Part shown: piece after piece, positions 27,588 to 51,643 of the stretch
Position numbering within the stretch: the first letter of the stretch is position 1
How the letters are laid out: each line of letters begins with the position of its first letter
NCBI GenBank assembly: GCA_020060385.1
Contig: JAGVAH010000135.1
Coordinates: 1 to 58,215, forward strand
Length of the DNA: 58,215 bases
Direction: 5' to 3'
Origin: Syntrophobacterales bacterium
GTDB taxonomy: Bacteria; Desulfobacterota; Desulfobaccia; Desulfobaccales; 0-14-0-80-60-11
Notes under the pieces: generated by a model
What the model saw: the letters and a program-made list of their open reading frames with translations, nothing else
What the model was told of the DNA's origin: nothing
The model's database searches: none
Program-made: the position numbers and the translations under genes

Positions 27588-27857
27588 TTAATGGGGCACT
27601 CCCCATAAGGCATGTTCCAGCAGCAACCCCGAGGTCAGCCAGGGGGCCTTTTCTTCCAGGCCTTTGATTCTCTTGGTTAAATATTTGACTTTGGCCTGGA
27701 AATTTTCATTATCGGGTGCGCCTTCCAGATCTTTTGTCGCCCCGTGCAGGAGCTGCCGCAGCTCCAAATACTCCCTCTCCAGGGCCTGGGCCTCTTTGCG
27801 GAAATTTTGATAATCTTCCGATTGGTCATCGTAAAACCACATCAGGTCCTTATCCAT
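27588..27857 (-). CDS. Small coiled-coil protein, last gene of the ubiquitin-like cassette
   Basis: An 89-residue charged protein (MDKDLMWFYDDQSEDYQNFRKEAQALEREYLELRQLL...) with long heptad-like helices separated by GAPDNENF, then KVKYLTKRIKGLEEK and a hydrophobic end. GGGAGG lies 6 bases before ATG 27857. It follows the E1-like gene after 92 bases, same strand. No family recognised; an adaptor or target-binding role is only a guess from context. Confidence 0.6.
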   Translation of the reverse strand: MDKDLMWFYDDQSEDYQNFRKEAQALEREYLELRQLLHGATKDLEGAPDNENFQAKVKYLTKRIKGLEEKAPWLTSGLLLEHALWGVPH

Positions 27858-27949
27858 GTCCGGCCTCCCAGATCCAGCCTTCCCCCCTGGTGTGCCCAGG
27901 GGACAGTGGGCAGTTATGCTCGTAAGTTGCCAAAACCCCAATCTTTTCT

Positions 27950-29215
27950 TCAGAGACGATAATCGCCCCGGGCGTCATAAAAGATGGGGGGCGTTTCCTG
28001 TCCATCCAGGAGCCTTCTTAAAGAATCCACCGCCAAGCCGGCGATGATTTGATTGGTCATGATGACCGCGGGATCGGGCTGGCGGATACAGGACTCCGGC
28101 TGCTGCTGGCGGGTCTCGGGATGACGCCGGTCCACGATCCCGTATAATCCCAGGAGGGCCGCGGGGGTCTGGGTATTCTGCTTGGGGTCATAGACTACCA
28201 CCTGGCCCTGGTCGATGTTGGTGCCGCTGCTGATCAGGATTTTCTTCTCCTGCGCACATTTTTCGCTCAGCACTATCCTGGTTTCATGGTTATCGACGCA
28301 GTCGAAGATAACGTCGAAAGGGGAGATGTCGGTGGCGCTTCTTAAGTAGGCCGCCGCGGCTTGGGCCCGGGTCCCGAAGGCGGCGTTCAGCCTTTGGGCC
28401 AAAATTTCCGCCTTGTTGAGACCAAGGGCCTCGTAAAAAAATACTTGCCGGTTCAGATTCGTGATCTCAATGGCGTCCGGGTCCATAAAAGTAAGATGGG
28501 GAAAGCCCGCGTAAGCCAGGCCCAGCCCCACAAAATTCCCCAAAGCCCCGGCCCCCACCACGCCGATGGCCAGATCGGATGGGGCTGGAGCCAATTTCTT
28601 CCTCCGGTAGTCCAGCACCTCCGGGGATGCCTGCTGCCCCATCAGGATATTTTTGGTCTCCCCCAGGGCCAGACCGGCGCCAATGATGGCCAGGACCGGG
28701 TCCTCAGCATGGGGGCGAGGGAGGTTGAGGGGTGACACCACCTCCGCCAGCGCCTGCCATTCCCGTCCCGGCAGATAGGTAAAAATTTTGCACCCCTCCT
28801 CCTCTTCGGTTTCGTAGCAGCACCCCCGGACAATGGGCAGATGATCCTGCCGCCCCTTTTCCAGGAGCAATTTATTGGCCAGCCCATACCGGCTCAGGTC
28901 CACGATCGCCTGGCAGTGGTGAAAGATGTCCCCCAACCGCGGATGGGTATAAAACCCTTCCAAAAACGTGAGGTGGAAACCGGGGTTGATCTTGGGGGCC
29001 ATCTCCAGGAGCCGGGCCTCCAAGGAGGGGGCGATCACCACGATCTGGTTAATCCCCAGGGCCGCGGCCGCGAGAATAAAGAGGGAGGCCAGCCGGTCGG
29101 CGTCCCCCACCACCCCGATTTTTCCTTCCCTCAGGCGTCGCTGGTCCCAGCCGGCAATTTGCAGCTGCCGGTCCAGCCTGGCTTCGAAGATCGTGGGGGT
29201 TGAGGATGAATACAT
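27950..29215 (-). CDS. ThiF/E1-like activating enzyme with degenerate N-terminal half
   Basis: A 421-residue E1-family protein. Active Rossmann adenylation domain at about 215-400: GVVGAGALGNFVGLGLAYAG (nucleotide loop GAGALGN, 221-227), MDPDAIEITNLNRQVFF (E1 motif NLNRQ 253-257), DCVDNHETR (305-313) and a candidate catalytic Cys376 in PESCIRQPDPAV. Residues 30-160 (IGVVGDADRLASLFILAAAALG) look like a second, degenerate ThiF/Rossmann unit without the motifs, recalling the inactive/active pairing of eukaryotic E1s. It should adenylate the C-terminus of a ubiquitin-like protein. Lies 22 bases after the JAMM gene. Moderately AT-neutral, host-like codon use. Confidence 0.8.
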   Translation of the reverse strand: MYSSSTPTIFEARLDRQLQIAGWDQRRLREGKIGVVGDADRLASLFILAAAALGINQIVVIAPSLEARLLEMAPKINPGFHLTFLEGFYTHPRLGDIFHHCQAIVDLSRYGLANKLLLEKGRQDHLPIVRGCCYETEEEEGCKIFTYLPGREWQALAEVVSPLNLPRPHAEDPVLAIIGAGLALGETKNILMGQQASPEVLDYRRKKLAPAPSDLAIGVVGAGALGNFVGLGLAYAGFPHLTFMDPDAIEITNLNRQVFFYEALGLNKAEILAQRLNAAFGTRAQAAAAYLRSATDISPFDVIFDCVDNHETRIVLSEKCAQEKKILISSGTNIDQGQVVVYDPKQNTQTPAALLGLYGIVDRRHPETRQQQPESCIRQPDPAVIMTNQIIAGLAVDSLRRLLDGQETPPIFYDARGDYRL

Positions 29216-29237
29216 AGTAATATTAGTGTGTTAATGG

Positions 29238-30041
29238 CTAAACGCTTTCCAGCTTGGCAAGCTGATATTTTAGCGGTTGAATCTTGGTGCGCACCTCCTC
29301 CCGGAGAGCGGCGATCTCTTCCTGGGGGAAGGGCCCTGACGATTCCACTTCCATGACCTCGGCTTCCTTCTTGGTGATGCTGGTTTGGCCCGAAAGGATC
29401 CCCCGCCGCTTGTAATGAATCTCCTGGCGATGCCAGCCCGCATCCCCGACAACCATGGCGTAGCAAAAGCCGCCATACACGGTTTCCATGATCCTGGCGG
29501 CCGCCACCGGCACATCGGTAACGAGGCAGACGCTGCCTCGTTCCAGGTCTGGGGGGCTCCAACGGCCCTCCACCAGCAAGGCCAGGTCCTTGATCACCAA
29601 TTCTCTTTTGGCCACCGGCTGTTTCACCAGCGCCGTCACATAATTCAGCACCACCTCCTGGTTTTGCGCATCAATGGCGGAAAATCCCTGGAGATCCAGT
29701 TCCCCGTGGGAGTGAATCCAGCCGTTGATGATCCGGTCATCCGGCAGGGTCTCCTGGTAGGCGGCGATATTTTCCGGGCCGATGCGGGTGTAGTGTTGGC
29801 TGTTTTCATCATTTTTCGGTAAGCCGATATCCCTGATTACCTCCGGGTTATCACGGCTGCCCAGGGTGTAGCCATACCATTCGTAGCTGTCTCCATGGAC
29901 CTCCCGCACCAGTTCGCTGATTTTGAAGGCCTTGGCCCGGGCATAACCGGTCAGCCTGATTGCCTCCGGCAAGGAAGCCAGGATTAACTCATAGGCTTCC
30001 GCCCGCTTCAGTTCCCCCAGGCTCTTGAATCTCATCTGCAT
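29238..30041 (-). CDS. JAMM/JAB (Mov34/MPN) metalloprotease
   Basis: A 267-residue JAB-domain protein. JAMM residues: Glu54 in YEWYGYTLGS, then His110-Ser-His112 in GWIHSHGELDLQGFSAID with Ser121 and Asp124. The gap between the second His and Ser is eight residues, one more than the usual seven. Such enzymes trim or remove ubiquitin-like proteins. The C-terminal 130 residues include a probable coiled coil (EEEIAALREEVRTKIQPLKYQLAKLE-type). The start overlaps the ClpX-like gene; ATG 30035 (ATGA overlap with its stop) is an alternative. Confidence 0.8.
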   Translation of the reverse strand: MQMRFKSLGELKRAEAYELILASLPEAIRLTGYARAKAFKISELVREVHGDSYEWYGYTLGSRDNPEVIRDIGLPKNDENSQHYTRIGPENIAAYQETLPDDRIINGWIHSHGELDLQGFSAIDAQNQEVVLNYVTALVKQPVAKRELVIKDLALLVEGRWSPPDLERGSVCLVTDVPVAAARIMETVYGGFCYAMVVGDAGWHRQEIHYKRRGILSGQTSITKKEAEVMEVESSGPFPQEEIAALREEVRTKIQPLKYQLAKLESV

Positions 30042-31135
30042 CTCGCCCGCACGAAATTCTCATCTATCACCAATTCGCCCTTATAGGTTCCGGGCAGCCG
30101 GAACATTTCTTCATGGAGGACCTTATGGAGAATGCTCACCAACCCCCGGGCCCCGGTGCCCTCCTGTTCGGACTGATGGGCGATGGCGGTTAAGGCCCCG
30201 TCGGTAAAGGCCAGGTCTATGTCCCAGGCCTTAAAGTCGTCCACGTAAGCCTTGAGGGGGCTGCCCTCGCTTTTCACCAGGATGTCCTTCAGATCCTGGG
30301 TGGAGAGCAGACTGTAAACCACCCGCACGGGAAAGCGCCCCATCAGCTGCCGGATCATCCCGAATTTAACCAAATCCTCGGTCAGGAGGTGCTCCCGCCA
30401 ATCGCCGTTATGGCCCTGGCGGTCCAACCGTTTCCGGACAATGGCGTCAAGATTTTCGTAGACTCCGCCAGCAATGAAGAGGACGTGTTTGGTGGATAAA
30501 GAGATGCGTTCGCTCCCCAAATCAATCGTATTTTCCACGCCCTCCACCAGTTGCAGGAGGCCTTTCTGCACCCCGGTGCCGGACACGTCCCGGTATACCC
30601 CGGGCTCATGGGCAATCTTGTCAATTTCATCCAGATAGACTATCCCCAGTTGGGCGACCTGGGAGTTGCCCCCCGCGGCAATCAGCAAATCCACCAGGAT
30701 GTCGGCCACATTCTGGCCCACATAGCCCACTTCACTGAATTTGGCCAGGTCCACCGCCATGAAAGGAACCCCCACCAACTCCGAGGCAATTTCACTGGTG
30801 TAGGTCTTGCCGCACCCGGTGGGGCCCACGATCAGGATATTGGCCTTGGGGGTCCGGGTTTGGCGCAGGATGGAGTCAAGGTCTTCCCGGTTTTCCTCCG
30901 CAGACCGCTTGAAGGCTGCCCCCAACCGCCGATAATGGAAGGAGATGGCGGTGGCCATGATTTTTTTCCCGGGGTCCTGCCCAATAATAAACCGGTCCAG
31001 CTCGACCTTAAGATCGGACGGGGTCTTATTAAATTCCATGATTTGCCGCATCACGTCGCTGACCTGATGCTCGCGCCGCTGGTCCAGCTTTTCTTTGATG
31101 CGTCGCTGTTGTTGCCGTTTCACTTCATCGTACAT
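30032..31135 (-). CDS. ClpX-like AAA+ unfoldase without zinc domain or ClpP-docking loop
   Basis: A 367-residue AAA+ protein aligned by eye with ClpX: DRFIIGQDPGKKIMATAISFHYRRL (DQYVIGQ-like), Walker A GPTGCGKT (104-111), pore loop GYVG (137-140), Walker B VYLDEIDKI (166-174), MGRFPVRV box and sensor-2 GAR (328-330). It lacks the N-terminal Cys4 zinc-binding domain; a basic helix is there instead. In the region where ClpX carries the IGF ClpP-docking loop it has LDRQGHNGDWREHL with no IGF. It should unfold proteins using ATP, but not obviously feed ClpP. ATG 31135 follows the previous stop by 2 bases. Confidence 0.85.
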   Translation of the reverse strand: MYDEVKRQQQRRIKEKLDQRREHQVSDVMRQIMEFNKTPSDLKVELDRFIIGQDPGKKIMATAISFHYRRLGAAFKRSAEENREDLDSILRQTRTPKANILIVGPTGCGKTYTSEIASELVGVPFMAVDLAKFSEVGYVGQNVADILVDLLIAAGGNSQVAQLGIVYLDEIDKIAHEPGVYRDVSGTGVQKGLLQLVEGVENTIDLGSERISLSTKHVLFIAGGVYENLDAIVRKRLDRQGHNGDWREHLLTEDLVKFGMIRQLMGRFPVRVVYSLLSTQDLKDILVKSEGSPLKAYVDDFKAWDIDLAFTDGALTAIAHQSEQEGTGARGLVSILHKVLHEEMFRLPGTYKGELVIDENFVRARCR

Positions 31136-31137
31136 AA

Positions 31138-31596
31138 TTATGCTCTCTTGGATATTTCCGGTTTTTCCCCGGCAAGGCCGCCCAAAAGCAAGGTCTGGAA
31201 GTGATGCCCGGCCAGTTGTTCCGGCGTCAGATGCGGCTGGCGCCGGAACAGGGGTCTGCACAACAGGACCTCCTCCGGGGAGTGGGCGAAGTGGAGGTAG
31301 GGGTTATTAACTTTGGCGACAATGGCCATGGTGAGGCGGTATTTTTCCGGAGTGGCCAGAGCGAACAGGGGGAGTTGGAGTTTTTCTTTTTCCCTGGCCG
31401 GTTTTGACTTGAGTGTCCCTAAGGAAAAATTTTCATTAAAGGCATCAATTTCCTTCAAGAAATCCTCTGCCAAGCCGTGTTTTTCCACCAGGGCGTGGAT
31501 TCTCACAAACAGGCTGGGTTGCCAGGGCTCCTTGGCTTTTCTTTGGAGCCGTTCCCTTTTCAACCGGTGCAGCAGATCGGCTTTAGGCGTAAGCAT
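31138..31596 (-). CDS. Unknown protein of the ubiquitin-like cassette
   Basis: A 152-residue basic protein. N-terminal half is helical (LLHRLKRERLQRKAKEPWQPSLFVRIHALVEKHGLAEDFLKEID-type), the second half has LQLPLFALATPEKYRLTMAIVAKVNNPYLHF and ends GEKPEISKRA. No fold recognised. ATG 31596 overlaps the end of the E2-like gene by 14 bases, and its stop is 2 bases from the ClpX-like start, so the three are translationally coupled and probably act together. Confidence 0.65.
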   Translation of the reverse strand: MLTPKADLLHRLKRERLQRKAKEPWQPSLFVRIHALVEKHGLAEDFLKEIDAFNENFSLGTLKSKPAREKEKLQLPLFALATPEKYRLTMAIVAKVNNPYLHFAHSPEEVLLCRPLFRRQPHLTPEQLAGHHFQTLLLGGLAGEKPEISKRA

Positions 31597-32761
31597 TCTT
31601 AACTTCCACCCGCCCGGAGGAAATCTTCGGGTGATCCGGACTGATGCGGTAATCTTCAAAGTCCACCAGCCGTTCCTGCATCGGCAGTCTATCCAGACTA
31701 TGATAGCCGTTGCGGCGGCGGCAATTATAGCCGTAAAACAGGGCGTTAACGCCTTCTTCCAGCGCGGTGACGGCGGCCGCGGCCGTGAAGGCCGGGGGAG
31801 GGTGGAAGTGTCTCAGGCAAATATCCTGGCCGGCGGTATGGCGGCGCAGGAAAGGATGTTTATACTTTTCCAGAACCACCGGCTTGAGGCGGCCCGCGGT
31901 GGAAATCGCCACCCGGCAATCGGGGAACAGGTAAAGGCGGCCGTAATAATCTTTGAGGGCGTATTCTCCGGTGCGTTTGTAAATTAAATATTCCCCGGTC
32001 TTGCCCATCCGGGAGAAACCAAAGCCATTGATCTCCAGGGAGCCCTCGGCCGCCAGGAACAGCAGAACCCCCGCCTTTTGCCAATGCTTTTTTGAGAGTT
32101 GCTCGTCCTGGACAATCTTCTGCCTTAAGCGGTCCTTCTCCTTTTCCAGTATCTTTGCGGTTATGGCTTGATGGAACCATTGACGCAGATCTTGAGCCGC
32201 TATTCTGCCCTCCCTGAGGGGTTCTACGGTTATCACGATGTTGTCTAACTGAGTCAGTAATTTTCGGGATACCTCCGGGTCAGCCAATCTGCGCCTGCGC
32301 CGCTTATATTTTGGGGGAAGGGCAATTTTTTGGCATATGAGGTCCAATACTTCTTCACTATCCGGCTTTTTTCTCCCCCCAATATGGTCTTCTCTCCTGA
32401 GGAAATGGGGCATTATTGCAAAAACTATAGTTTTAAGATTTTGATCAAGGCCAACATCCTCTCGTTTGACCATGAAACCGAGATTTTTTTGCAGGAAAAC
32501 GTCCCTTAGCTGATTATAGGCTTCAGGATGCAGGTGTGGGAATTGTTCCAGGAGGGAGGATAAGCTCAGGGTCTTGATGAAGTGCCGGCCGTCTACCAGG
32601 AGAAGCTCATTCCCGCTGGGAGACCCCCGGGCTGAGCCTGGGCTTGGGGAATTTGCAGGGTCCTGGATTTCTGCGGCCAGGGAGGGATCGAACAACAGGG
32701 GCACAAAGAGGAAATTATTGACCACCACCAGTTCCAGGTCGGATGCCAATAATTGTTGCAA
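31583..32761 (-). CDS. Protein with an E2-like (UBC-type) active-site motif
   Basis: A 392-residue protein using TTG 32761, which has AAGGAGG 7 bases upstream; a longer frame reaches 32860 but overlaps the upstream gene. Residues 1-190 are an unrecognised domain (ELVVVNNFLFVPLLFDP...LLLVDGRHFIKTLSL). The C-terminal part has YLIYKRTGEYALKD, LYLFPDCRVAIS, then KHPFLRRHTAGQDICLRHF with Cys315. Ubiquitin-conjugating enzymes carry HPN-x5-G-x-[IV]-C-L at the catalytic cysteine, so this is a plausible divergent E2. Set between a Gly-Gly-ending small protein and E1/JAB genes. The E2 reading is inference from this motif plus context. Confidence 0.6.
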   Translation of the reverse strand: MQQLLASDLELVVVNNFLFVPLLFDPSLAAEIQDPANSPSPGSARGSPSGNELLLVDGRHFIKTLSLSSLLEQFPHLHPEAYNQLRDVFLQKNLGFMVKREDVGLDQNLKTIVFAIMPHFLRREDHIGGRKKPDSEEVLDLICQKIALPPKYKRRRRRLADPEVSRKLLTQLDNIVITVEPLREGRIAAQDLRQWFHQAITAKILEKEKDRLRQKIVQDEQLSKKHWQKAGVLLFLAAEGSLEINGFGFSRMGKTGEYLIYKRTGEYALKDYYGRLYLFPDCRVAISTAGRLKPVVLEKYKHPFLRRHTAGQDICLRHFHPPPAFTAAAAVTALEEGVNALFYGYNCRRRNGYHSLDRLPMQERLVDFEDYRISPDHPKISSGRVEVKNAYA

Positions 32762-32774
32762 GGGTACCTCCTCC

Positions 32775-33140
32775 TTATCGTCCTCCCTCTTGAGGTTTGA
32801 TGGCCCGCACCGCCACATAAAGGTATTTTTCCCCGGCTGCAGTCTCCTCCAGAACCGCATACTTTATGGCCGCGCCGCCGATTCCCCCGGCCTTGGTCAG
32901 GAGCCGGCCGCCGTCAAGTTGCCTCTGGATATCTTCCAGCACCTGCATCTCTTCCAGGCTCCAATTGGTCTTGGCCAACATCCGGCTGCACAGATCCTGG
33001 AGGGATTGGTCTTCGTAGTTCCCCGGTTCATGGATGTCGATCAGCCCTTCCCCCGCCTGGCCGGGTATGATCTCCACCACCAATGGCAGCAATTGTGCCA
33101 GCCTGTCCGCTTGCTCCGCCTTTTTCTCGTGGATTTCCAT
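32775..33140 (-). CDS. Small protein ending Gly-Gly-Arg, candidate ubiquitin-like modifier
   Basis: A 121-residue acidic protein, first gene of the cassette. N-terminal half helical (MEIHEKKAEQADRLAQLL), C-terminal part strand-rich (AAIKYAVLEETAAGEKYLYVAVRAIK) and ending PQEGGR. A C-terminal Gly-Gly with one trailing residue, next to E1-, E2- and JAB-like genes, is what an immature ubiquitin-like protein would look like. However, the beta-grasp fold is not evident, so it may be another component. AAGGAG lies 12 bases before ATG 33140; the stop is 13 bases before the next start. Confidence 0.6.
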   Translation of the reverse strand: MEIHEKKAEQADRLAQLLPLVVEIIPGQAGEGLIDIHEPGNYEDQSLQDLCSRMLAKTNWSLEEMQVLEDIQRQLDGGRLLTKAGGIGGAAIKYAVLEETAAGEKYLYVAVRAIKPQEGGR

Positions 33141-35090: not shown

Positions 35091-35404
35091 ATTGCCGCTC
35101 CTGGAAGGTTAGCTGTCATCCCCGCCGCGTCCTTTTTATTTAGAAAATCAGCGAGTTGCCCATATTTCCTCATAGTCCGACTTTCCTCTGGGAGTTCTTT
35201 CTACTAATGGGCTGTGGTCCTGGGGTGTCTTGGCTGCGAAGCTTTGTTCTGTAAACGGCTGTATCTTAGCAGATACCCTTTCCTTCCCTAAGGATTTTTC
35301 AGGAATCCTCCGGCGCGGAAAATATTTTTCTTTTTTATGCTATGATTAACGGCGGCATCCGCCAAACCTGCAAATTCTGGTCAGCTCAAGGAATATGTGA
35401 AGAT
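35091..35404. other. Gene-free 314-base stretch between divergent genes
   Basis: Contains a short palindrome GTATCT-TAGC-AGATAC (35261-35276), a possible operator, and TATGAT about 60 bases before the UbiA gene as a weak -10. No gene seen. Confidence 0.4.
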
Positions 35405-36304
35405 ATGCGCCGCATAGGCTTATATGTGCAACTAGCCCGGGTGCATCAGTATGTGAAGAACGGCTTTGTCTGCCTGCCCCTTCTTTTTGGCTATAAACTT
35501 GGGGATGTGCAGGCCCTGGAGCAGACCGGCCTGGCTTTCCTGGTATTTTGTCTTACAGCCTCCAGCGTCTATGTGATTAATGACCTCTGGGACGTCGAAG
35601 AGGACCGGCAGCACCCGGTAAAGCGCCACCGTCCCCTGGCTGCCGGGGAGTTGCTTCCCGCCCAGGCCGCCCGCTTCATGGTCCTCTTATTGGCGACGGC
35701 AGTTGTTTTGACGGTCGTTTTCCTCCCCATCATCTTTCTGGTGATATTATGCAGCTACCTAGTCCTTAATCTGGCCTACACTTTCCTTCTTAAACACCTG
35801 GCCGTGGTAGACGTGGTCTGCATTGCCATCGGCTTCGTACTTAGAGTCTATGCCGGTGGGGTGACGGCGGGGGTCCCCATCAGCCATTGGATTGTGGCCT
35901 TGACCTTTCTCCTGGCCCTCTTTTTGGCCTTTGGCAAACGGCGGGACGATCTGCTCCAGGCAGATGGCGGTAACAACGCCCGGAAGAGCCTGGACGGCTA
36001 CAACCTGGAGTTCGTGGGCCTCGCCATGGGCGTGATGGCGGCGGTGATCATCGTCGCCTATCTCCTCTATACCCTGTCCCCCGGCACCATGGCCAAACAC
36101 GGCAGCGACCAGCTCTACCTCAGCGCTTTCTGGGTCATCCTCGGCCTGTTGCGCTATTTTCAGATCACCGTGGTGGAAGAGCGTTCCGGCTCCCCCACGA
36201 AGATCCTTATCCAAGATGCTTTTCTCCAGGTCACCATCATCCTCTGGTTCCTCTCTTTTTTCCTGTTACACTATTTTGCAATCAGGGCCGAAGGGGGCGT
36301 TTGA
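35405..36304 (+). CDS. UbiA-family decaprenyl-phosphate phosphoribosyltransferase-like enzyme
   Basis: A 299-residue polytopic prenyltransferase. Catalytic Asp motif VINDLWDVEEDRQHPVKRHRPLAAGEL matches DPPR synthase (Rv3806c type), which joins polyprenyl phosphate to phosphoribosyl pyrophosphate. A second motif region is near GKRRDDLLQADGG. ATG 35405 is chosen over 35342 because the family fold starts there. The stop is 5 bases before the DprE1-like gene, and a DprE2-like gene follows, giving the full route to polyprenyl-phospho-arabinose. Confidence 0.8.
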   Translation: MRRIGLYVQLARVHQYVKNGFVCLPLLFGYKLGDVQALEQTGLAFLVFCLTASSVYVINDLWDVEEDRQHPVKRHRPLAAGELLPAQAARFMVLLLATAVVLTVVFLPIIFLVILCSYLVLNLAYTFLLKHLAVVDVVCIAIGFVLRVYAGGVTAGVPISHWIVALTFLLALFLAFGKRRDDLLQADGGNNARKSLDGYNLEFVGLAMGVMAAVIIVAYLLYTLSPGTMAKHGSDQLYLSAFWVILGLLRYFQITVVEERSGSPTKILIQDAFLQVTIILWFLSFFLLHYFAIRAEGGV

Positions 36305-36308
36305 CGGC

Positions 36309-37607
36309 ATGAAGCTGAGCGGCTGGGGTAGATACCCGGTGATTGACAGCCAGACGCAATCCTTTGCCAGCCTGGCCGAGCTCCACCGTTGTCTGGCGGT
36401 TGCCGGCGACCTCATCGTCCATGCCATGGGCAGAAGTTATGGGGACAGCGCCCTCCACGACCGGGTGCTTCTTTCACGGCGTTTCAACAAGATCCTGGAC
36501 TTCGAACCCCAGACCGGCACGGTCACCTGTGAGGCTGGCGTCACCCTGGCGGATCTCCTGGAGGCCTTCCTGCCCCGGGGCTGGTTGTTGCCGGTAATCC
36601 CCGGCACCAAGTTCATTAGTGTGGGGGGGGCCATCGCCAGCGACATCCACGGCAAGAACCACCACCGGGAGGGATGTTTCAGTGAGTGCCTCCAGGCCCT
36701 GGACCTGCTCCTCCCCAATGGTGAAATGAAGCGGATGAGCCGTAAAGAGAATCGCCACCTGTTTCAGGCGACCTGCGGCGGCATGGGGCTCACCGGGATC
36801 ATCACCACGGCCGCGTTGCGCCTGCGGCCCATACGGAGCGCCTGCATCAGGGAAACCCGGCAGCGTTGCGCCAACCTGCAGGAGGTTTTCCAATTGTTCG
36901 AGGCCAACCCGGAGCCCACCTATTCCGTGGCTTGGATCGACTGCCTCTCCTCCGGAGAGCGCCTGGGCCGCTCCATCTTGATGTTGGGGGAGCATGCCGA
37001 GTCGGGGCCCCTGCGCCTCCCCCCCCCCCGATCCCTGGGCATTCCCCTGGAGTTGCCCTCCTTCGTCTTAAATAAACATTCTGTCGCCCTCTTCAACCAC
37101 CTCTACTACCACGGCAAACCCGATTTGGTGGCGGGACGCCTCACCCCTTTGGAGGACTTTTTCTTCCCCTTGGACCGGATTGGCCACTGGAACCGGATGT
37201 ACGGGCGTCGCGGCTTTACTCAGTACCAACTGGTGCTGCCCCAGGAATCGAGCCTGGCGGGCATAACCGAGATTTTGCAGCGCACCAGCGCCTCGGGCCT
37301 CGGTTCCTTCTTGGGGGTGCTCAAGCTTTTTGGCCCGGCTAACGACAACCTTCTCTCCTTTCCCATGCGGGGATATACACTGGCCATCGACTTTAAAATC
37401 GAGAAAAGACTCTTTCCCTTTTTGGAAGAATTGGACCGGGTGGTCCTGGACCACGGCGGGCGTCTCTACCTCACCAAGGACGTGCGCATGTCCAGGGAGA
37501 CTTTCTGTCAAAGCTATCCCCGCTGGGAGGAATTCGCGGCTCTCCGGGAACGCTTAGGTTTGCAGGAGAAATTCAATTCCCGGCAGTCCCGCCGCTTGGG
37601 AGTGTGA
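36309..37607 (+). CDS. DprE1-like FAD-dependent polyprenylphosphoryl-ribose oxidase
   Basis: A 432-residue VAO/PCMH-type flavoprotein: HAMGRSYGDSALHD, PGTKFISVGGAIASDIHGKNHHREGCF (FAD-binding), FLGVLKLFGPANDNLLSFPMRGYTLAIDF and the C-terminal YLTKDVRMSRETF, all as in DprE1. It oxidises the C2 hydroxyl of polyprenyl-phospho-ribose. At the place of mycobacterial Cys387 (GWNICVDF) it has Ala (GYTLAIDF). It starts 5 bases after the UbiA-like stop. Confidence 0.85.
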   Translation: MKLSGWGRYPVIDSQTQSFASLAELHRCLAVAGDLIVHAMGRSYGDSALHDRVLLSRRFNKILDFEPQTGTVTCEAGVTLADLLEAFLPRGWLLPVIPGTKFISVGGAIASDIHGKNHHREGCFSECLQALDLLLPNGEMKRMSRKENRHLFQATCGGMGLTGIITTAALRLRPIRSACIRETRQRCANLQEVFQLFEANPEPTYSVAWIDCLSSGERLGRSILMLGEHAESGPLRLPPPRSLGIPLELPSFVLNKHSVALFNHLYYHGKPDLVAGRLTPLEDFFFPLDRIGHWNRMYGRRGFTQYQLVLPQESSLAGITEILQRTSASGLGSFLGVLKLFGPANDNLLSFPMRGYTLAIDFKIEKRLFPFLEELDRVVLDHGGRLYLTKDVRMSRETFCQSYPRWEEFAALRERLGLQEKFNSRQSRRLGV

Positions 37608-37608
37608 T

Positions 37609-38340
37609 ATGCATGTGCTCATTTTGGGGGCCAATTCCGACATGGCCCAGGCCCTGGCCCGCAAGTTCGCCCAGGCGGAGCGGGCCCATCTGACCCTGGC
37701 CTCCCGGGACCTGGAGCTTTTGGCAAAACAGGCCCGGGATCTGGAGATTCGCTTCCAGATCAAGGCCCGGCCACTCTACTTCGATGCCACCGACTTTCCC
37801 TCCCACGCCGGTTTTTACCACAGCCTCGCCCCCAAGCCGGACCTGGTTATCTTGGCCTTTGGCTATCTGGGAGACCAGAAGCGGGCCCAGGAGGACTTCG
37901 GAGAGGCCCGCCGGATCATCTCCATCAACTTTACGGGGGCAGTAAGTATCCTGGAAATCATCGCCCAGGACTTTGAAGTCCGGGGTCATGGCGGTATCAT
38001 CGGCATCAGTTCCGTGGCCGGTGAACGGGGGCGCCAGAGCAACTATATCTATGGGGCCGCCAAAGGAGCCCTTTCCCTGTACCTGGGGGGGCTGCGCAAC
38101 CGTCTCCACCCCCGGGGGGTGCGGGTGTTGACGGTGCTGCCGGGGTTCGTGGCCACCAAGATGACAGAACACCTGGACCTCCCCGAAAAGCTCCTGGCCA
38201 CTCCCGCAGAGGTGGCCGAGGACGTTTACCGGGCTTATACCAGAGGCAAGGAGAAGGTTTATACCAAGGGTTTGTGGAAGTGGATCATGTGGATTATCAA
38301 GGCCATACCGGAGAAGTTGTTCAAAAGGCTGAAATTATAA
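37609..38340 (+). CDS. DprE2-like short-chain dehydrogenase
   Basis: A 243-residue SDR: nucleotide loop LILGANSDMAQALARKFA, catalytic Ser in GISSVAGERGRQSNYIYGAAKGAL with YxxxK. The C-terminal GLWKWIMWIIKAIPEKLFKRLKL resembles DprE2. Reduces the keto intermediate made by the oxidase to the arabinose form. ATG follows the DprE1-like stop by 1 base. An amphipathic C-terminus suggests membrane contact. Confidence 0.85.
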   Translation: MHVLILGANSDMAQALARKFAQAERAHLTLASRDLELLAKQARDLEIRFQIKARPLYFDATDFPSHAGFYHSLAPKPDLVILAFGYLGDQKRAQEDFGEARRIISINFTGAVSILEIIAQDFEVRGHGGIIGISSVAGERGRQSNYIYGAAKGALSLYLGGLRNRLHPRGVRVLTVLPGFVATKMTEHLDLPEKLLATPAEVAEDVYRAYTRGKEKVYTKGLWKWIMWIIKAIPEKLFKRLKL

Positions 38341-46962: not shown

Positions 46963-48918
46963 TTAACGCACTGGAAACCTGGCCACTAGTCTTTTAAACT
47001 TGGCAATTACCTCTGCCGGGGTCACCGCTAAGCGACAGGGATCACTCTTCCAACGGACCGCCAGGTTCTTGCAGCCTACGTCCCAACAGGGATAGCAGTC
47101 AAGATCCGCCGGTGGTTCGGCCACCTCGCAATTAGCATAGAAATTCAATCTCGCGGCGGGTTTGACCCCCCCGGTAAAAATAGCCAGGAAAGGAATGCGG
47201 GACAGGGCGGCGATGTGGTAGGCGCTGGTGTCCGTACTGATTACATATTTCCCCAATTTTACCGCTTCAATATAATCCGTGATCGTCTTGGTTTTACCCA
47301 CCAGGCTGACTATCCCTTTGCCTTTGAAATGCTTGCTATTCTTGGTCCCCACCACCAGGGGGGTTAATCCCATGGCCTTAACGGCTTCCAGAAGCTGCGG
47401 ATAATAAGGTTCCCACCAACTTCTCGCGGGATTGGTGGCGATCAGGCAGAGAACCACAAATCTCCGGGTCGCCTCGACTCCCATGTCGGCCAAGATTTGC
47501 AGTACCCTCTGCCGGGCTTCCGGGTAATCGGCCATGGGCACCAATTCATAGTCCGGTTCTAAGCCCAGCTTCCGGGTGTACACCAGATGCCGGTTAACCT
47601 CATTGTCCGCATTCATGATCCCCCAAAAGGTTTCAAACTCCATCTCCAGGTTGATAAAATTATAGACTTGCGAGACTGTGGGGATGGGTAACGGCGAAAA
47701 TTTTCGGCCATTGGGGATGGCGATGAACTCATCAAAGATCTTAAATCCGTTCATCATCTCGATGTTCCGCTGATAGGTGGCCAAAAGCAGCTTCTTTTCC
47801 GGATAGCGATCCCGGAGCTTCTGAAAGGCGGAAATGCCCATCAACAAGTCACCTATGCCGTCATCCCGGATGATGGTAATGGCCTTGCTGAACTCCTGGG
47901 GAGCAAACGGCCGGCGCTGCTGTTCTTGGGCTTGGAGCTGCGCAATTTTCCGGGCCCAAAGCCGGCGCAACCGGAGTCTATCCAGTCGTCCTTTCCGCCA
48001 ATCCCGGGAAGAACATTCCCAATGGTAAATCTCCGCGGCGGGGTTATATAACACCTTAAATCCCGCCTCCGCCAGCCGGAAACAGAAATCCGTATCCTGG
48101 GCCTCCTCCTTAAAATTCTCATCCAGTTGGAACCGGTCAAAAACGTCGTGCCTCATTGCCACCGCGGCGAAAGTCACCGCCGGCACCACGGCCTGGTAAT
48201 TGGCCCTGGTAAGATCCCTGGGCTGCCGGGCATGGATATGAAAGCCATCCCCATGCGCATTGAATTCTATGCCCGCATGTTGAATGGTGTTATCCGCATA
48301 AAGAAGCTTGGCCCCCACAACCCCGATCTGCAAATCTGCCAGGGGATCGATCAAATTAGCCAACCAGTTAGCGGTAACCCGGGTATCGTTGTTGAGGAGC
48401 ACCACATATTGACCCCGGCTCCGGTTTTCGATTAACCAATTATAATTTTTAGAGAAATAATATGAATTCAATTTAAATATTTTCAGGTTTTTATGACGGT
48501 TGGCGGCCAGACGGTAATATTGCCAGACCTCGGGTTCGGTGCTCCCGGTATCGCCCAACAAGATCTCGATTTGATATTTGTTGCTGGGGAACTTAATGAT
48601 TGCTTCCAGGCAAGGTTGAATCAGATCCAAACGATTTTTAGTCAAAATAGCAATTGATACCAGCCCCTTGGTGTAATCTTGGGCATGGGGATAATCCTGC
48701 AGCCGCTCACCCTTGATTTTCCTAAAATACCGGTCAATGGCGAACCAAAGCCCTTTAACGCCATGTAACCGCAGGATCTCCCAGGAGAGGCGGGCGAGAT
48801 GTAAATAGAATTTAATGGGGATTACTTTGGACAAGGGTGCCAAATTATTAACCTTTGTTAGTGTCTTAAATTCAGGGAGATGGTTGTCTGCTAAATGAAG
48901 TCGGCTTGATTTTGCCAA
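46963..48918 (-). CDS. Two-domain glycosyltransferase: GT2 plus GT9-like
   Basis: A 651-residue fusion. GT2 domain about 85-330: GLVSIAILTKNRLDLIQPCLEAI, LLNNDTRVTANWL, AQDTDFCFRLAEAGFKVLYNP. GT9/heptosyltransferase-like domain about 345-645: ITIIRDDGIGDLLMGISAFQKL, LIATNPARSWWEPYYPQLLEA, VISTDTSAYHIAALSRIPFLAIF, followed by a Cys cluster (CYPCWDVGCKNLAVRWKSDPC) seen in some GT9 enzymes. One polypeptide would add two sugars. The start overlaps the upstream gene by 28 bases. Confidence 0.8.
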   Translation of the reverse strand: MAKSSRLHLADNHLPEFKTLTKVNNLAPLSKVIPIKFYLHLARLSWEILRLHGVKGLWFAIDRYFRKIKGERLQDYPHAQDYTKGLVSIAILTKNRLDLIQPCLEAIIKFPSNKYQIEILLGDTGSTEPEVWQYYRLAANRHKNLKIFKLNSYYFSKNYNWLIENRSRGQYVVLLNNDTRVTANWLANLIDPLADLQIGVVGAKLLYADNTIQHAGIEFNAHGDGFHIHARQPRDLTRANYQAVVPAVTFAAVAMRHDVFDRFQLDENFKEEAQDTDFCFRLAEAGFKVLYNPAAEIYHWECSSRDWRKGRLDRLRLRRLWARKIAQLQAQEQQRRPFAPQEFSKAITIIRDDGIGDLLMGISAFQKLRDRYPEKKLLLATYQRNIEMMNGFKIFDEFIAIPNGRKFSPLPIPTVSQVYNFINLEMEFETFWGIMNADNEVNRHLVYTRKLGLEPDYELVPMADYPEARQRVLQILADMGVEATRRFVVLCLIATNPARSWWEPYYPQLLEAVKAMGLTPLVVGTKNSKHFKGKGIVSLVGKTKTITDYIEAVKLGKYVISTDTSAYHIAALSRIPFLAIFTGGVKPAARLNFYANCEVAEPPADLDCYPCWDVGCKNLAVRWKSDPCRLAVTPAEVIAKFKRLVARFPVR

Positions 48919-50849
48919 AGTTTTCGGGCGATCTGCCGATAGATCTTGACGAATGGAGATATAGCTAATTTTAATAGTTGATGTTTCAATATAAATAACT
49001 TTATATCACATTTTAATTTTGATCGAGAGTTCATATAGGGATAAAGCTTATACAAATCATCACGCATTAGCTTAGCGTAGCTTTCATTCTTAAACAAGAT
49101 TCCCCTGTAGTATTCCGACAATATAACTTTTATAAATCTTGGTAATATATTGTTGGTTATGTATTTACAGCCTCTGATATAATCATCTTGATATTGATCC
49201 AATAGTTTTTTTGCATAAATAATACGGCTAGTTGCCATTCTTGTGCTCCAAGAGCAACTAGTGCCGTGTATACGCCATTGTGCAAGAGATTTATTTATAA
49301 ATACATTACTATACCCCTTCGCAAAAATACGCAAGAATAAATCGTCATCCTCATATCCGGATAGCCTTTCATCAAAACCACCAACATCATTAAATGCCTT
49401 TTTTGATATTAGCGTGGCAGATGGAACCACAAACATATCCGCACTTAGGCATTGATCGATAGTTTTCTTAGGATGAACGGAACCGGTAAATGCTAAACAA
49501 TCTAAGCGAACTAACTCCCCACCCTCACCTATTTCATCAACAGTACTATAAACCCATCCCAGTTCAGGATAATGATTCTCTAAAAAAGGCCTCACCAGAT
49601 TTTCTAAATGATGGGGATACCAAATGTCATCTTGATCCAGGAAGGCAATAAAGTCTCCATTGGCAATACGGACACCATAATTTCTTGCCGATGATTGCCC
49701 ACCATTTTCTTTATTGAAAATTAATAGGGGATATTTTTTTGCCAACTCTGTCAACAAAAGGCCAGAATCATCCGTTGATCCATCATTTACGACGATTATT
49801 TCATATGGTTTGAGCGTTTGATCTACAACGCTTTGGATTGCCTTTTCTAAATATTTCTCCCCATTATAAACAGGTATGACCACAGATATTTTTTTGTCAA
49901 TTTTTGCAAGGTCGGGAGAAACATCATAAGCCTGTTCCAATAATCTTTGTCGATCTACGGGACAACCATTCCCTTGGAAAGAGAGGCTGAGAAAAAACTC
50001 GAACCCTAACGTATCATGAAAAGCCTTCTCTTTTAAATTAATATATCCCGCCTGGTATAGGTCGTTTATAATCAAACGAAAACTGGCCGGGGTAAAACGC
50101 CAGGCATGGATATCAATATATTCGGGTGCATCTTTCTTAGTCTCCAACATTTGTTTCGCTTCCGAGATACTGTGGGTCAGTTTGAGAGAGCCAAGTTCTT
50201 CTTGCGACCAAGATAGGTGGCCATCCCTGTACGCAACATAAGCAAAATGATCAAATATTTTTCCCACAGGATGCCTGGTTCGCTTTTCCAGATAAGCTTG
50301 TATCACCTCTCCGGTGCTGGTTAATGGTTGAAATATGTCAAAACAAAACCTTTTATCCGGGATAGCCAGGATTAATACACCATCTTCTTTCAAAAGAGAC
50401 TCACAATCTTTTATAAAGCCGATAACATCGGGAATATGCTCTAGGACATGGGAAGCAATGATATAGTCATATTTATTATTCTTTATGAAGCTGGTAATCC
50501 GTTGTCCATCCGTCACATAATCGACTTCTTCTATCTTCGAGATGTCCATGTTGGGATCATCTTGATATTTTTGTTTAAGATCGGCCGCACAGGCATGATC
50601 TAGCGTCTCAACATTATATCCCAGTGATTTAGGAGCCACCGGATTATAACTTGGCCCGATTTCCAGACCGAAATCAGCGGCCTTGAATAAAGACCTAAGA
50701 ATATCCATTCTATCCATAACGTATTTCCTTAACCCAAACCTCGTGCCCCGTAAGGAAGACAGCCTGGAAATTTGCCGGACAAGTAATTTTTCCTCAGATT
50801 GTTGCCATGGTGTCCCTGCATCTTGGTAGTCACACCCATCTTCGACCAT
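48891..50849 (-). CDS. Two-domain enzyme: SAM methyltransferase plus GT2
   Basis: A 652-residue fusion. Methyltransferase domain about 40-260: GLEIGPSYNPVAPKSLGYNVETLDH, YDYIIASHVLEHIPDVIGFIKD, GVLILAIPDKRFCFD. GT2 domain about 325-560: KISVVIPVYNGEKYLEKAIQSVVDQTL, NDGSTDDSG, LDQDDIWYPHHL, YEDDDLFLRIF. It is clearly AT-rich, unlike the ABC exporter beside it, so recently acquired. Probably extends and methylates a glycan end, which in ABC-exported O-antigens can stop chain growth. Confidence 0.82.
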   Translation of the reverse strand: MVEDGCDYQDAGTPWQQSEEKLLVRQISRLSSLRGTRFGLRKYVMDRMDILRSLFKAADFGLEIGPSYNPVAPKSLGYNVETLDHACAADLKQKYQDDPNMDISKIEEVDYVTDGQRITSFIKNNKYDYIIASHVLEHIPDVIGFIKDCESLLKEDGVLILAIPDKRFCFDIFQPLTSTGEVIQAYLEKRTRHPVGKIFDHFAYVAYRDGHLSWSQEELGSLKLTHSISEAKQMLETKKDAPEYIDIHAWRFTPASFRLIINDLYQAGYINLKEKAFHDTLGFEFFLSLSFQGNGCPVDRQRLLEQAYDVSPDLAKIDKKISVVIPVYNGEKYLEKAIQSVVDQTLKPYEIIVVNDGSTDDSGLLLTELAKKYPLLIFNKENGGQSSARNYGVRIANGDFIAFLDQDDIWYPHHLENLVRPFLENHYPELGWVYSTVDEIGEGGELVRLDCLAFTGSVHPKKTIDQCLSADMFVVPSATLISKKAFNDVGGFDERLSGYEDDDLFLRIFAKGYSNVFINKSLAQWRIHGTSCSWSTRMATSRIIYAKKLLDQYQDDYIRGCKYITNNILPRFIKVILSEYYRGILFKNESYAKLMRDDLYKLYPYMNSRSKLKCDIKLFILKHQLLKLAISPFVKIYRQIARKLWQNQADFI

Positions 50850-50896
50850 ATTTGATCTGAGGTCATTTCCTCAAGGCAATCCCCTGACCCCATCTA

Positions 50897-51643
50897 CTAA
50901 TCTGCAACCGACCCTAAGAAGTTCTCATACTGACGCACCACTCCCGGGGTGTCGCCCCAGCTCCTTATTTCCCCTCGCTCCAACCACAGGGCCCGGTCGC
51001 AAAATTTTAGGATCTGGTCAAGGCTATGGGAGACAAAGAGGATGGTGCCGCCGGCTTGGCGAAATTTGGCAATATGCGCATGGCACTTTTCTTGAAAAGC
51101 CGTATCTCCCACCGCCAGGACTTCGTCCAAGATCATAATTTCCGGGTCAACCGCGATGACCACGGCAAAGCCCAACCGCGTGATCATGCCCGAAGAGTAC
51201 GCCCGCAGCGGCGTTTCCATGAAATCCTCCAGCTCGGTAAATTCACTGATCGCGTCAAACTTCTTATCCATCTCCCGCCGGCTGATTCCCAGAATAGAAC
51301 CCAATAGATAGACGTTCTCCCGCCCACTCAACTCATGGTCGAACCCCCCTCCCAGTTCGATCATGGGGGCCACCTTTCCCGGCACCCGCACCGTGCCCCG
51401 CGTCGGTTTCATAACCCGGGCAATCAGCTTCAAGAGGGTGCTCTTGCCGGCGCCGTTCCGGCCGACAATGCCCAGCATCTCCCCGGGGGGCACCTGAAAA
51501 GTGATATTTTTCAAGGCCCAGAACTCTTCATATTCCATGTGGCCCTTGAAGGATTTGATGATGAATTCCTTAAAGGAATGGACGCGCTCTTTAGGTAATC
51601 GGTAGCGCACCGAAACATCTTGCAGGACGATGGGCAGATTCAT
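50897..51643 (-). CDS. wzt: Polysaccharide ABC exporter ATPase (Wzt/TagH-like)
   Basis: A 248-residue ATPase: NITFQVPPGEMLGIVGRNGAGKSTLLKLIARV (Walker A), IELGGGFDHELSGRENVYLLGSILG (typical of polysaccharide/teichoic exporters), YSSGMITRLGFAVV (signature), EIMILDEVLAVGD (Walker B). It lacks the C-terminal carbohydrate-binding domain of longer Wzt proteins, so substrate selection probably lies elsewhere. It pairs with the permease 19 bases upstream. Confidence 0.9.
   Translation of the reverse strand: MNLPIVLQDVSVRYRLPKERVHSFKEFIIKSFKGHMEYEEFWALKNITFQVPPGEMLGIVGRNGAGKSTLLKLIARVMKPTRGTVRVPGKVAPMIELGGGFDHELSGRENVYLLGSILGISRREMDKKFDAISEFTELEDFMETPLRAYSSGMITRLGFAVVIAVDPEIMILDEVLAVGDTAFQEKCHAHIAKFRQAGGTILFVSHSLDQILKFCDRALWLERGEIRSWGDTPGVVRQYENFLGSVAD

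Follow-up and report, generated by a model that had tools for sequence, protein, structure and literature searches.

Eukaryotes link ubiquitin tagging to AAA+ motors and to a JAMM enzyme by which the tag is taken off during threading. Whether bacteria possess a pathway of the same kind is the question raised by a gene cassette of a Syntrophobacterales bacterium (assembly GCA_020060385.1, contig JAGVAH010000135.1), which lies on the minus strand at 27588–33140 of the stretch of 58,215 nucleotides analysed here (referred to as the window). We propose that six genes of this cassette probably constitute one pathway for the attachment and removal of a ubiquitin-like protein (Ubl) that is coupled to a dedicated unfoldase (probability roughly 0.6), with every reaction being assigned from the predicted functions of the parts. 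The gene set itself, its co-occurrence in genomes, the conserved active sites, the diglycine precursor pattern and the loss of the ClpP-binding loop from the unfoldase can be read directly from the sequences.

The conserved gene cassette

An initial annotation of this DNA had described seven genes on the minus strand, and all seven open reading frames are present. After refinement of the gene starts by means of ribosome-binding sites and homologues, the features are as follows (aa, amino acids).

32775..33140, minus strand: Ubl, ubiquitin-like protein, 121 aa, C-terminus PQEGGR, mature end predicted at Gly120
31583..32761, minus strand: putative E2-like conjugating enzyme, 392 aa, predicted catalytic Cys315 in YKHPFL-x6-QxIC
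31138..31596, minus strand: X152, conserved protein of 152 aa without known family
30032..31135, minus strand: ClpX-like AAA+ unfoldase, 367 aa, without zinc domain, RKH loop and IGF loop
29238..30035, minus strand: JAB/JAMM metallopeptidase, 265 aa
27950..29215, minus strand: E1-like enzyme, 421 aa, with a degenerate adenylation N-half and a predicted active ThiF C-half containing Cys376
27588..27857, minus strand: small coiled-coil protein, 89 aa, occasional accessory

The E2-like gene uses a TTG start, which is preceded by AAGGAGGAGG. Gaps of 13, 2, 22 and 92 base pairs (bp) separate Ubl from E2-like, X152 from ClpX-like, JAB from E1 and E1 from the coiled-coil gene, respectively, while E2-like and X152 overlap by 14 bp and ClpX-like and JAB by 4 bp (ATGA). 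The operon core consists of six genes in the order Ubl–E2-like–X152–ClpX-like–JAB–E1. Membership of the coiled-coil gene, which the initial annotation had included, was not borne out, as homologues of it were found in just three other loci (L003, L018 and L047) and at varying positions. Pfam matches such as NPDC1 and JAKMIP on the E2-like and coiled-coil proteins were regarded as noise.

A scan of species genomes with E1 yielded 19 loci, mostly from Desulfobacterota, together with one from Methylomirabilota (L018) and one from a contig filed as Nanoarchaeota (L016). In the loci containing all genes the order of the six is repeated across many genera, and it is kept in Desulfobacterota as well as in the Methylomirabilota contig and the contig filed as Nanoarchaeota. 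Among 395 sampled genomes of the phylum, which represent 245 genera, Ubl was detected in 20 genomes from 13 genera. E1 (E value no higher than 1e-60) and ClpX-like (E value no higher than 1e-120) were detected in the identical 20 genomes, and none of the three proteins was found in the other 375. The recurrence of the order across genera, together with the joint presence of Ubl, E1 and ClpX-like in the same 20 genomes, goes far beyond what chance would produce and shows that the cassette is a genuine unit. The possibility that the homologues occur independently and without a conserved neighbourhood, which would have spoken against the unit, is contradicted by both results.

In three genomes of one genus E1 is unlinked from the other genes, yet it is present elsewhere in the genome; in G166 and G336 the contig ends lie too near for the linkage of E1 to be judged. 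Within the sample, the cassette is absent from two congeners, in which the flanking genes are represented by distant paralogues only. Three loci (L003, L015 and L019) have E1 without other core genes in the stretch examined around E1, among them an E1 relative at L015:7992-9236 with no other cassette gene within its 17-kilobase stretch. The most diverged cassette is that of the contig filed as Nanoarchaeota (L016:3276-9227), whose X152 comprises 396 aa and which has genes for a TrmB-type regulator and for ArgG/ArgH close by; it could stem from transfer to an archaeon or from erroneous binning. At L004:4957-5331 and L005:4767-5141 a PDDEXK_3 / GxxExxY gene sits between E2 and X152, and in the loci of one group an ArsR-type regulator is encoded immediately upstream of Ubl (L004:2958-3392 and relatives).

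The proteins of the cassette

The small protein ending in GGR had been taken for ubiquitin-like, and the comparison of its homologues agrees with this. The motif PQEGG is invariant in 30 of 30 homologues, the residue that follows it is at most 23% conserved, and the tails thereafter range from 0 to 151 aa, with five homologues ending exactly at GG. The abrupt stop of conservation behind the invariant PQEGG and the variable tails give the protein the appearance of a ubiquitin precursor. Two species of one genus carry a GNAT acetyltransferase as the tail (L011:3577-4395, L045:8318-9136 and L046:9799-10611, the first two being the same sequence), and these fusions after GG are reminiscent of the fusions between ubiquitin and ribosomal proteins. 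In the AlphaFold model, with a mean pLDDT of 82, two strands are followed by a helix and then by later strands, as in the beta-grasp. Foldseek listed mostly Ubls of the ATG8/GABARAP type for this model and also the bacterial Ubls 8tyx and 8tyz (8tyz_B). As the E values were 0.05 or worse, the predicted beta-grasp fold is likely, short of being proven.

For the E1-like enzyme the homology is strong, in line with its earlier naming. It matches ThiF with an E value of 7.7e-31, shows no rhodanese match and has the eukaryotic Uba1 as its best match in the PDB. Its two halves are homologous to each other (E 8e-6), and the residues of the ATP site in the C-half and Cys376 are conserved in 32 homologues, bar one D247E. 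This supports a predicted pseudodimer architecture of a degenerate N-terminal adenylation half and an active C-half; the same arrangement of an inactive and an active half is described for BilD in a review (PMC11354881). Alignment with a PRTRC-type ThiF spans the C-half completely, Cys motif included (hhalign probability 98.5, E 2.5e-15), and the score for the PRTRC ThiF family TIGR03736 (62.9 bits) is under the cut-off of 144.75.

The assignment of the E2-like protein is weaker and rests on its motif and on the order of its predicted secondary structures. Y300, H302, P303, L305, Q312, I314 and C315 are invariant in 29 of 29 homologues, the sole change in the stretch YKHP…Q-x-I-C around Cys315 being one K to R, and the model has helix, strands, Cys and helix in the order of UBC proteins. 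These two points agree with the E2 proposed initially, whereas the fold and family searches did not confirm it: the best E2-fold match of the full-length protein in Foldseek is UbcH7 with an E value of 1.4, and its profile matches PRTRC_B weakly and in the stretch of the active-site Cys only (p 0.015). The profiles PRTRC_B (Prok-E2_D) and Prok-E2_B matched nothing in the phylum sample nor in the controls and are thus uninformative on absence. X152 is encoded beside ClpX-like and downstream of E2-like wherever that stretch is intact, and is perhaps an adaptor. The sole match of its profile, a weak one to ribosomal protein L20, was put down to composition. Ubl, the E2-like protein and X152 had no meaningful match in Pfam, NCBIfam, PADLOC or PHROGs.

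In the unfoldase, Walker A and B, the GYVG pore loop and the sensor-2 Arg are kept in 32 of 32 homologues, and alignment with the genome's own ClpX (35% identity) showed that the zinc domain, the RKH loop and the IGF loop are gone from all 32. In E. coli ClpXP the IGF loops dock ClpP and the RKH loops contact substrate near and above the pore (PMC7112951). The score for ClpX TIGR00382 is 235.9 bits, below the curated cut-off of 370.75. A dedicated AAA+ protein of ClpX type, as annotated at the outset, is thus supported, not as ClpX proper but as a relative without the ClpP-binding loop. The genome also encodes an authentic ClpX and a homologue of HslU. Outside the cassette, at L021 (G000:C164:52704-53759), there is a second ClpX-like protein, which comprises 588 aa and has an extra C-terminal region and GF in the loop.

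The stop codon of ClpX-like overlaps the start of JAB in 29 of 32 loci, both are apparently translated together, and the JAB gene adjoins E1 except where E1 is unlinked. The annotation of a JAMM protease is supported by the catalytic motif: H108, H110, S119 and D122 are found in 33 of 33 members and the catalytic E52 in 32. The Pfam family Prok-JAB matches 6 of 17 members, weakly.

Candidate pathway and its alternatives

We infer the reactions, the isopeptide target, the interactions of the partners and the role of X152 from the parts. Where a tail is present, JAB would trim it after PQEGG. The C-half of E1 would adenylate the exposed glycine and then form a thioester on Cys376, with the N-half as a structural pseudo-partner, and Ubl would be handed on to Cys315 of the E2-like protein and from there to a target amine. 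The ClpX-like ring would recognise Ubl-tagged proteins, perhaps via its own N-terminal helix or X152, and thread them through the GYVG pore, so that they might be released unfolded or out of complexes without transfer to ClpP. JAB would cut off Ubl during or after threading, for which Rpn11 represents a JAMM precedent of co-translocational cleavage above an AAA+ ring (PMC6770211).

In this specific form the cassette would encode a bacterial Ubl segregase, in which E1 and E2 conjugate a Ubl with processed diglycine, and a ClpX-derived, ClpP-independent unfoldase together with the JAMM enzyme extracts or unfolds the targets and recycles the tag, as a convergent counterpart of Cdc48/Rpn11; this form is tentative, a little short of even odds. 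The coupled pathway is favoured because Ubl, E1 and ClpX-like share the same 20 of 395 genomes, the order is conserved in the complete loci and E1, where unlinked, is still present; because of the PQEGG pattern, the five GG ends, the GNAT fusions, the conserved sites of E1 and JAB and the E1 pseudodimer; and because the unfoldase has kept its pore and ATPase residues, has lost the IGF, RKH and zinc elements and overlaps with JAB in 29 of 32 loci. The tag-and-unfold pathway suggested by the initial annotation is the best-supported reading, still at the level of an interpretation. Several points weigh against it. The E2-like protein had no significant match in Foldseek or Pfam, the Foldseek matches of Ubl are weak (best E 0.05), the reading comes with no known E3 or substrate and no explanation for X152, and in the JAB of L002 the catalytic E is replaced by V. 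In addition, an unfoldase encoded next to the conjugation genes might serve the assembly or recycling of that machinery and leave the conjugates untouched.

This last point leads to the alternative that Ubl conjugation is genuine while the ClpX-like protein remodels the machinery, by freeing stalled E1/E2/Ubl assemblies or activating X152, and leaves tagged targets alone. The loss of those ClpX elements that recruit the usual clients and ClpP and the tight packing of the unfoldase, JAB and X152 genes would fit; the overlap of ClpX-like with JAB and the fully conserved pore loop, however, also suit a motor on conjugates, and we consider remodelling rather unlikely. That the tagged proteins are degraded, with the ClpX-like protein passing them to ClpP by another docking mode or to another protease, is improbable: partner proteases are likely to be present, since the genome has a true ClpX and an HslU homologue, yet the IGF-loop region is deleted in all 32 homologues and JAB is the only protease of the cassette. 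Least probable is a sulfur-carrier pathway, in which E1 would produce a thiocarboxylate on Ubl and JAB would act as in release of the CysO/Mec type. Membership of the E1 C-half in the ThiF superfamily and the diglycine C-terminus fit sulfur carriers too, but the cassette has an E2-like protein with invariant Cys, a dedicated unfoldase, tailed precursors including the GNAT fusions and an E1 with two adenylation halves, and it lacks a sulfurtransferase gene; the E2-like partner and the precursor tails rule it out as the leading account.

Defence was the other option raised initially. An anti-phage system of the Bil or CBASS kind that modifies phage proteins would be in keeping with the patchy distribution, including the two congeners without cassette, and with the component list, which is similar to that of Bil operons (PMC11354881). 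It found no direct support: searches of plasmid, phage and viral collections brought up no match to Ubl, viral contigs gave none to E1, and the novel proteins matched no PADLOC family. The sampled flanking genes are housekeeping genes of sugar, redox and nucleotide metabolism. Flanking genes are shared within groups of related loci, but no neighbour outside the core recurs across unrelated families. A defence island as the leading account is ruled out by these flanks together with the collection searches, and a defence role in general appears unlikely. Within the window, UbiA, FAD-binding and short-chain dehydrogenase genes follow in a row at 35342-38340, resembling a decaprenyl-phosphoryl arabinose (DprE1/DprE2) set, and at 48001-51000 the GC content dips locally to 42.5%, as compared with about 52–62% across most of the window.

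Relation to known systems and significance

On our best reading, the nearest kind described is operon type 6d of Iyer 2006, equated here with the PRTRC set, to which the cassette is related. Type 6d comprises Ubl, JAB, E1, E2 and an alpha-helical protein (PMC1779556). The likeness lies in the component list, in the E1 C-half, which resembles the PRTRC-type ThiF, and weakly in the active-site Cys of the E2-like protein, which resembles that of PRTRC_B; the dedicated ClpX-like unfoldase and the extra degenerate N-half of E1 set the cassette apart. The 6d E2s are without the classical His (PMC1779556), whereas the E2-like protein has HP before the Cys. In NCBIfam neither the E2-like protein nor Ubl matched PRTRC_B or PRTRC_C, and hhalign gave an insignificant result for Ubl and a weak one for the E2-like protein. 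The PRTRC examples encountered in this analysis were plasmid-borne. As in types 6a–6e, E1 is without rhodanese, JAB is next to E1 and the Ubl, of probable beta-grasp fold, has a C-terminal glycine.

The Bil operons (BilABCD) combine Ubl, E2 and JAB peptidase with an E1 made of an inactive and an active half (PMC11354881), a set that the cassette resembles, with its putative E2-like protein in the place of E2. BilA, however, has two Ubl domains, whereas the Ubl of 121 aa was modelled as one beta-grasp domain, and neither an unfoldase nor X152 is described there (PMC11354881). With CBASS Cap2/Cap3 and 6A-MBL the cassette has in common the JAB peptidase and a similar E1 adenylation domain (Cap2, 6A-MBL E1, E1-E2 models); these systems differ by E2-E1 fusions and a cyclase or metallo-beta-lactamase partner (PMC1779556) and are not known to include an unfoldase. 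A full prokaryotic Ubl conjugation set beside an AAA+ chaperone is known from the FtsH-ternary systems with Ubl tri-ligase (Kaur 2020; PMC7159879), but there the chaperones are FtsH and MoxR/vWA instead of a ClpX-like protein, with EAD-effector fusions, a RING E3 and the context of a conflict system. To ClpX the unfoldase is related by its AAA+ motor, the GYVG pore loop and the sensor-2 GAR motif. The likeness to Cdc48/p97 and to the proteasome base with Rpn11, namely a proposed motor on tagged substrate and a JAMM enzyme which removes the tag, is an analogy only, as the unfoldase belongs to the unrelated ClpX lineage and the cassette is without 20S particle.

In a literature search limited to open-access papers, we came across no Ubl operon that includes a ClpX relative; the bacterial Ubl operons described in these papers combine conjugation and removal without such a coupling. 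The cassette suggests that a "tag, pull apart, untag" pathway may exist in bacteria as well. If this is true, tagging and unfolding would have become coupled on at least one further occasion, with a bacterial unfoldase as the starting point, and the origin of such a coupling could be tested on six small proteins. The pathway would also represent a bacterial route of protein control apart from ClpXP, Lon, FtsH and Pup.

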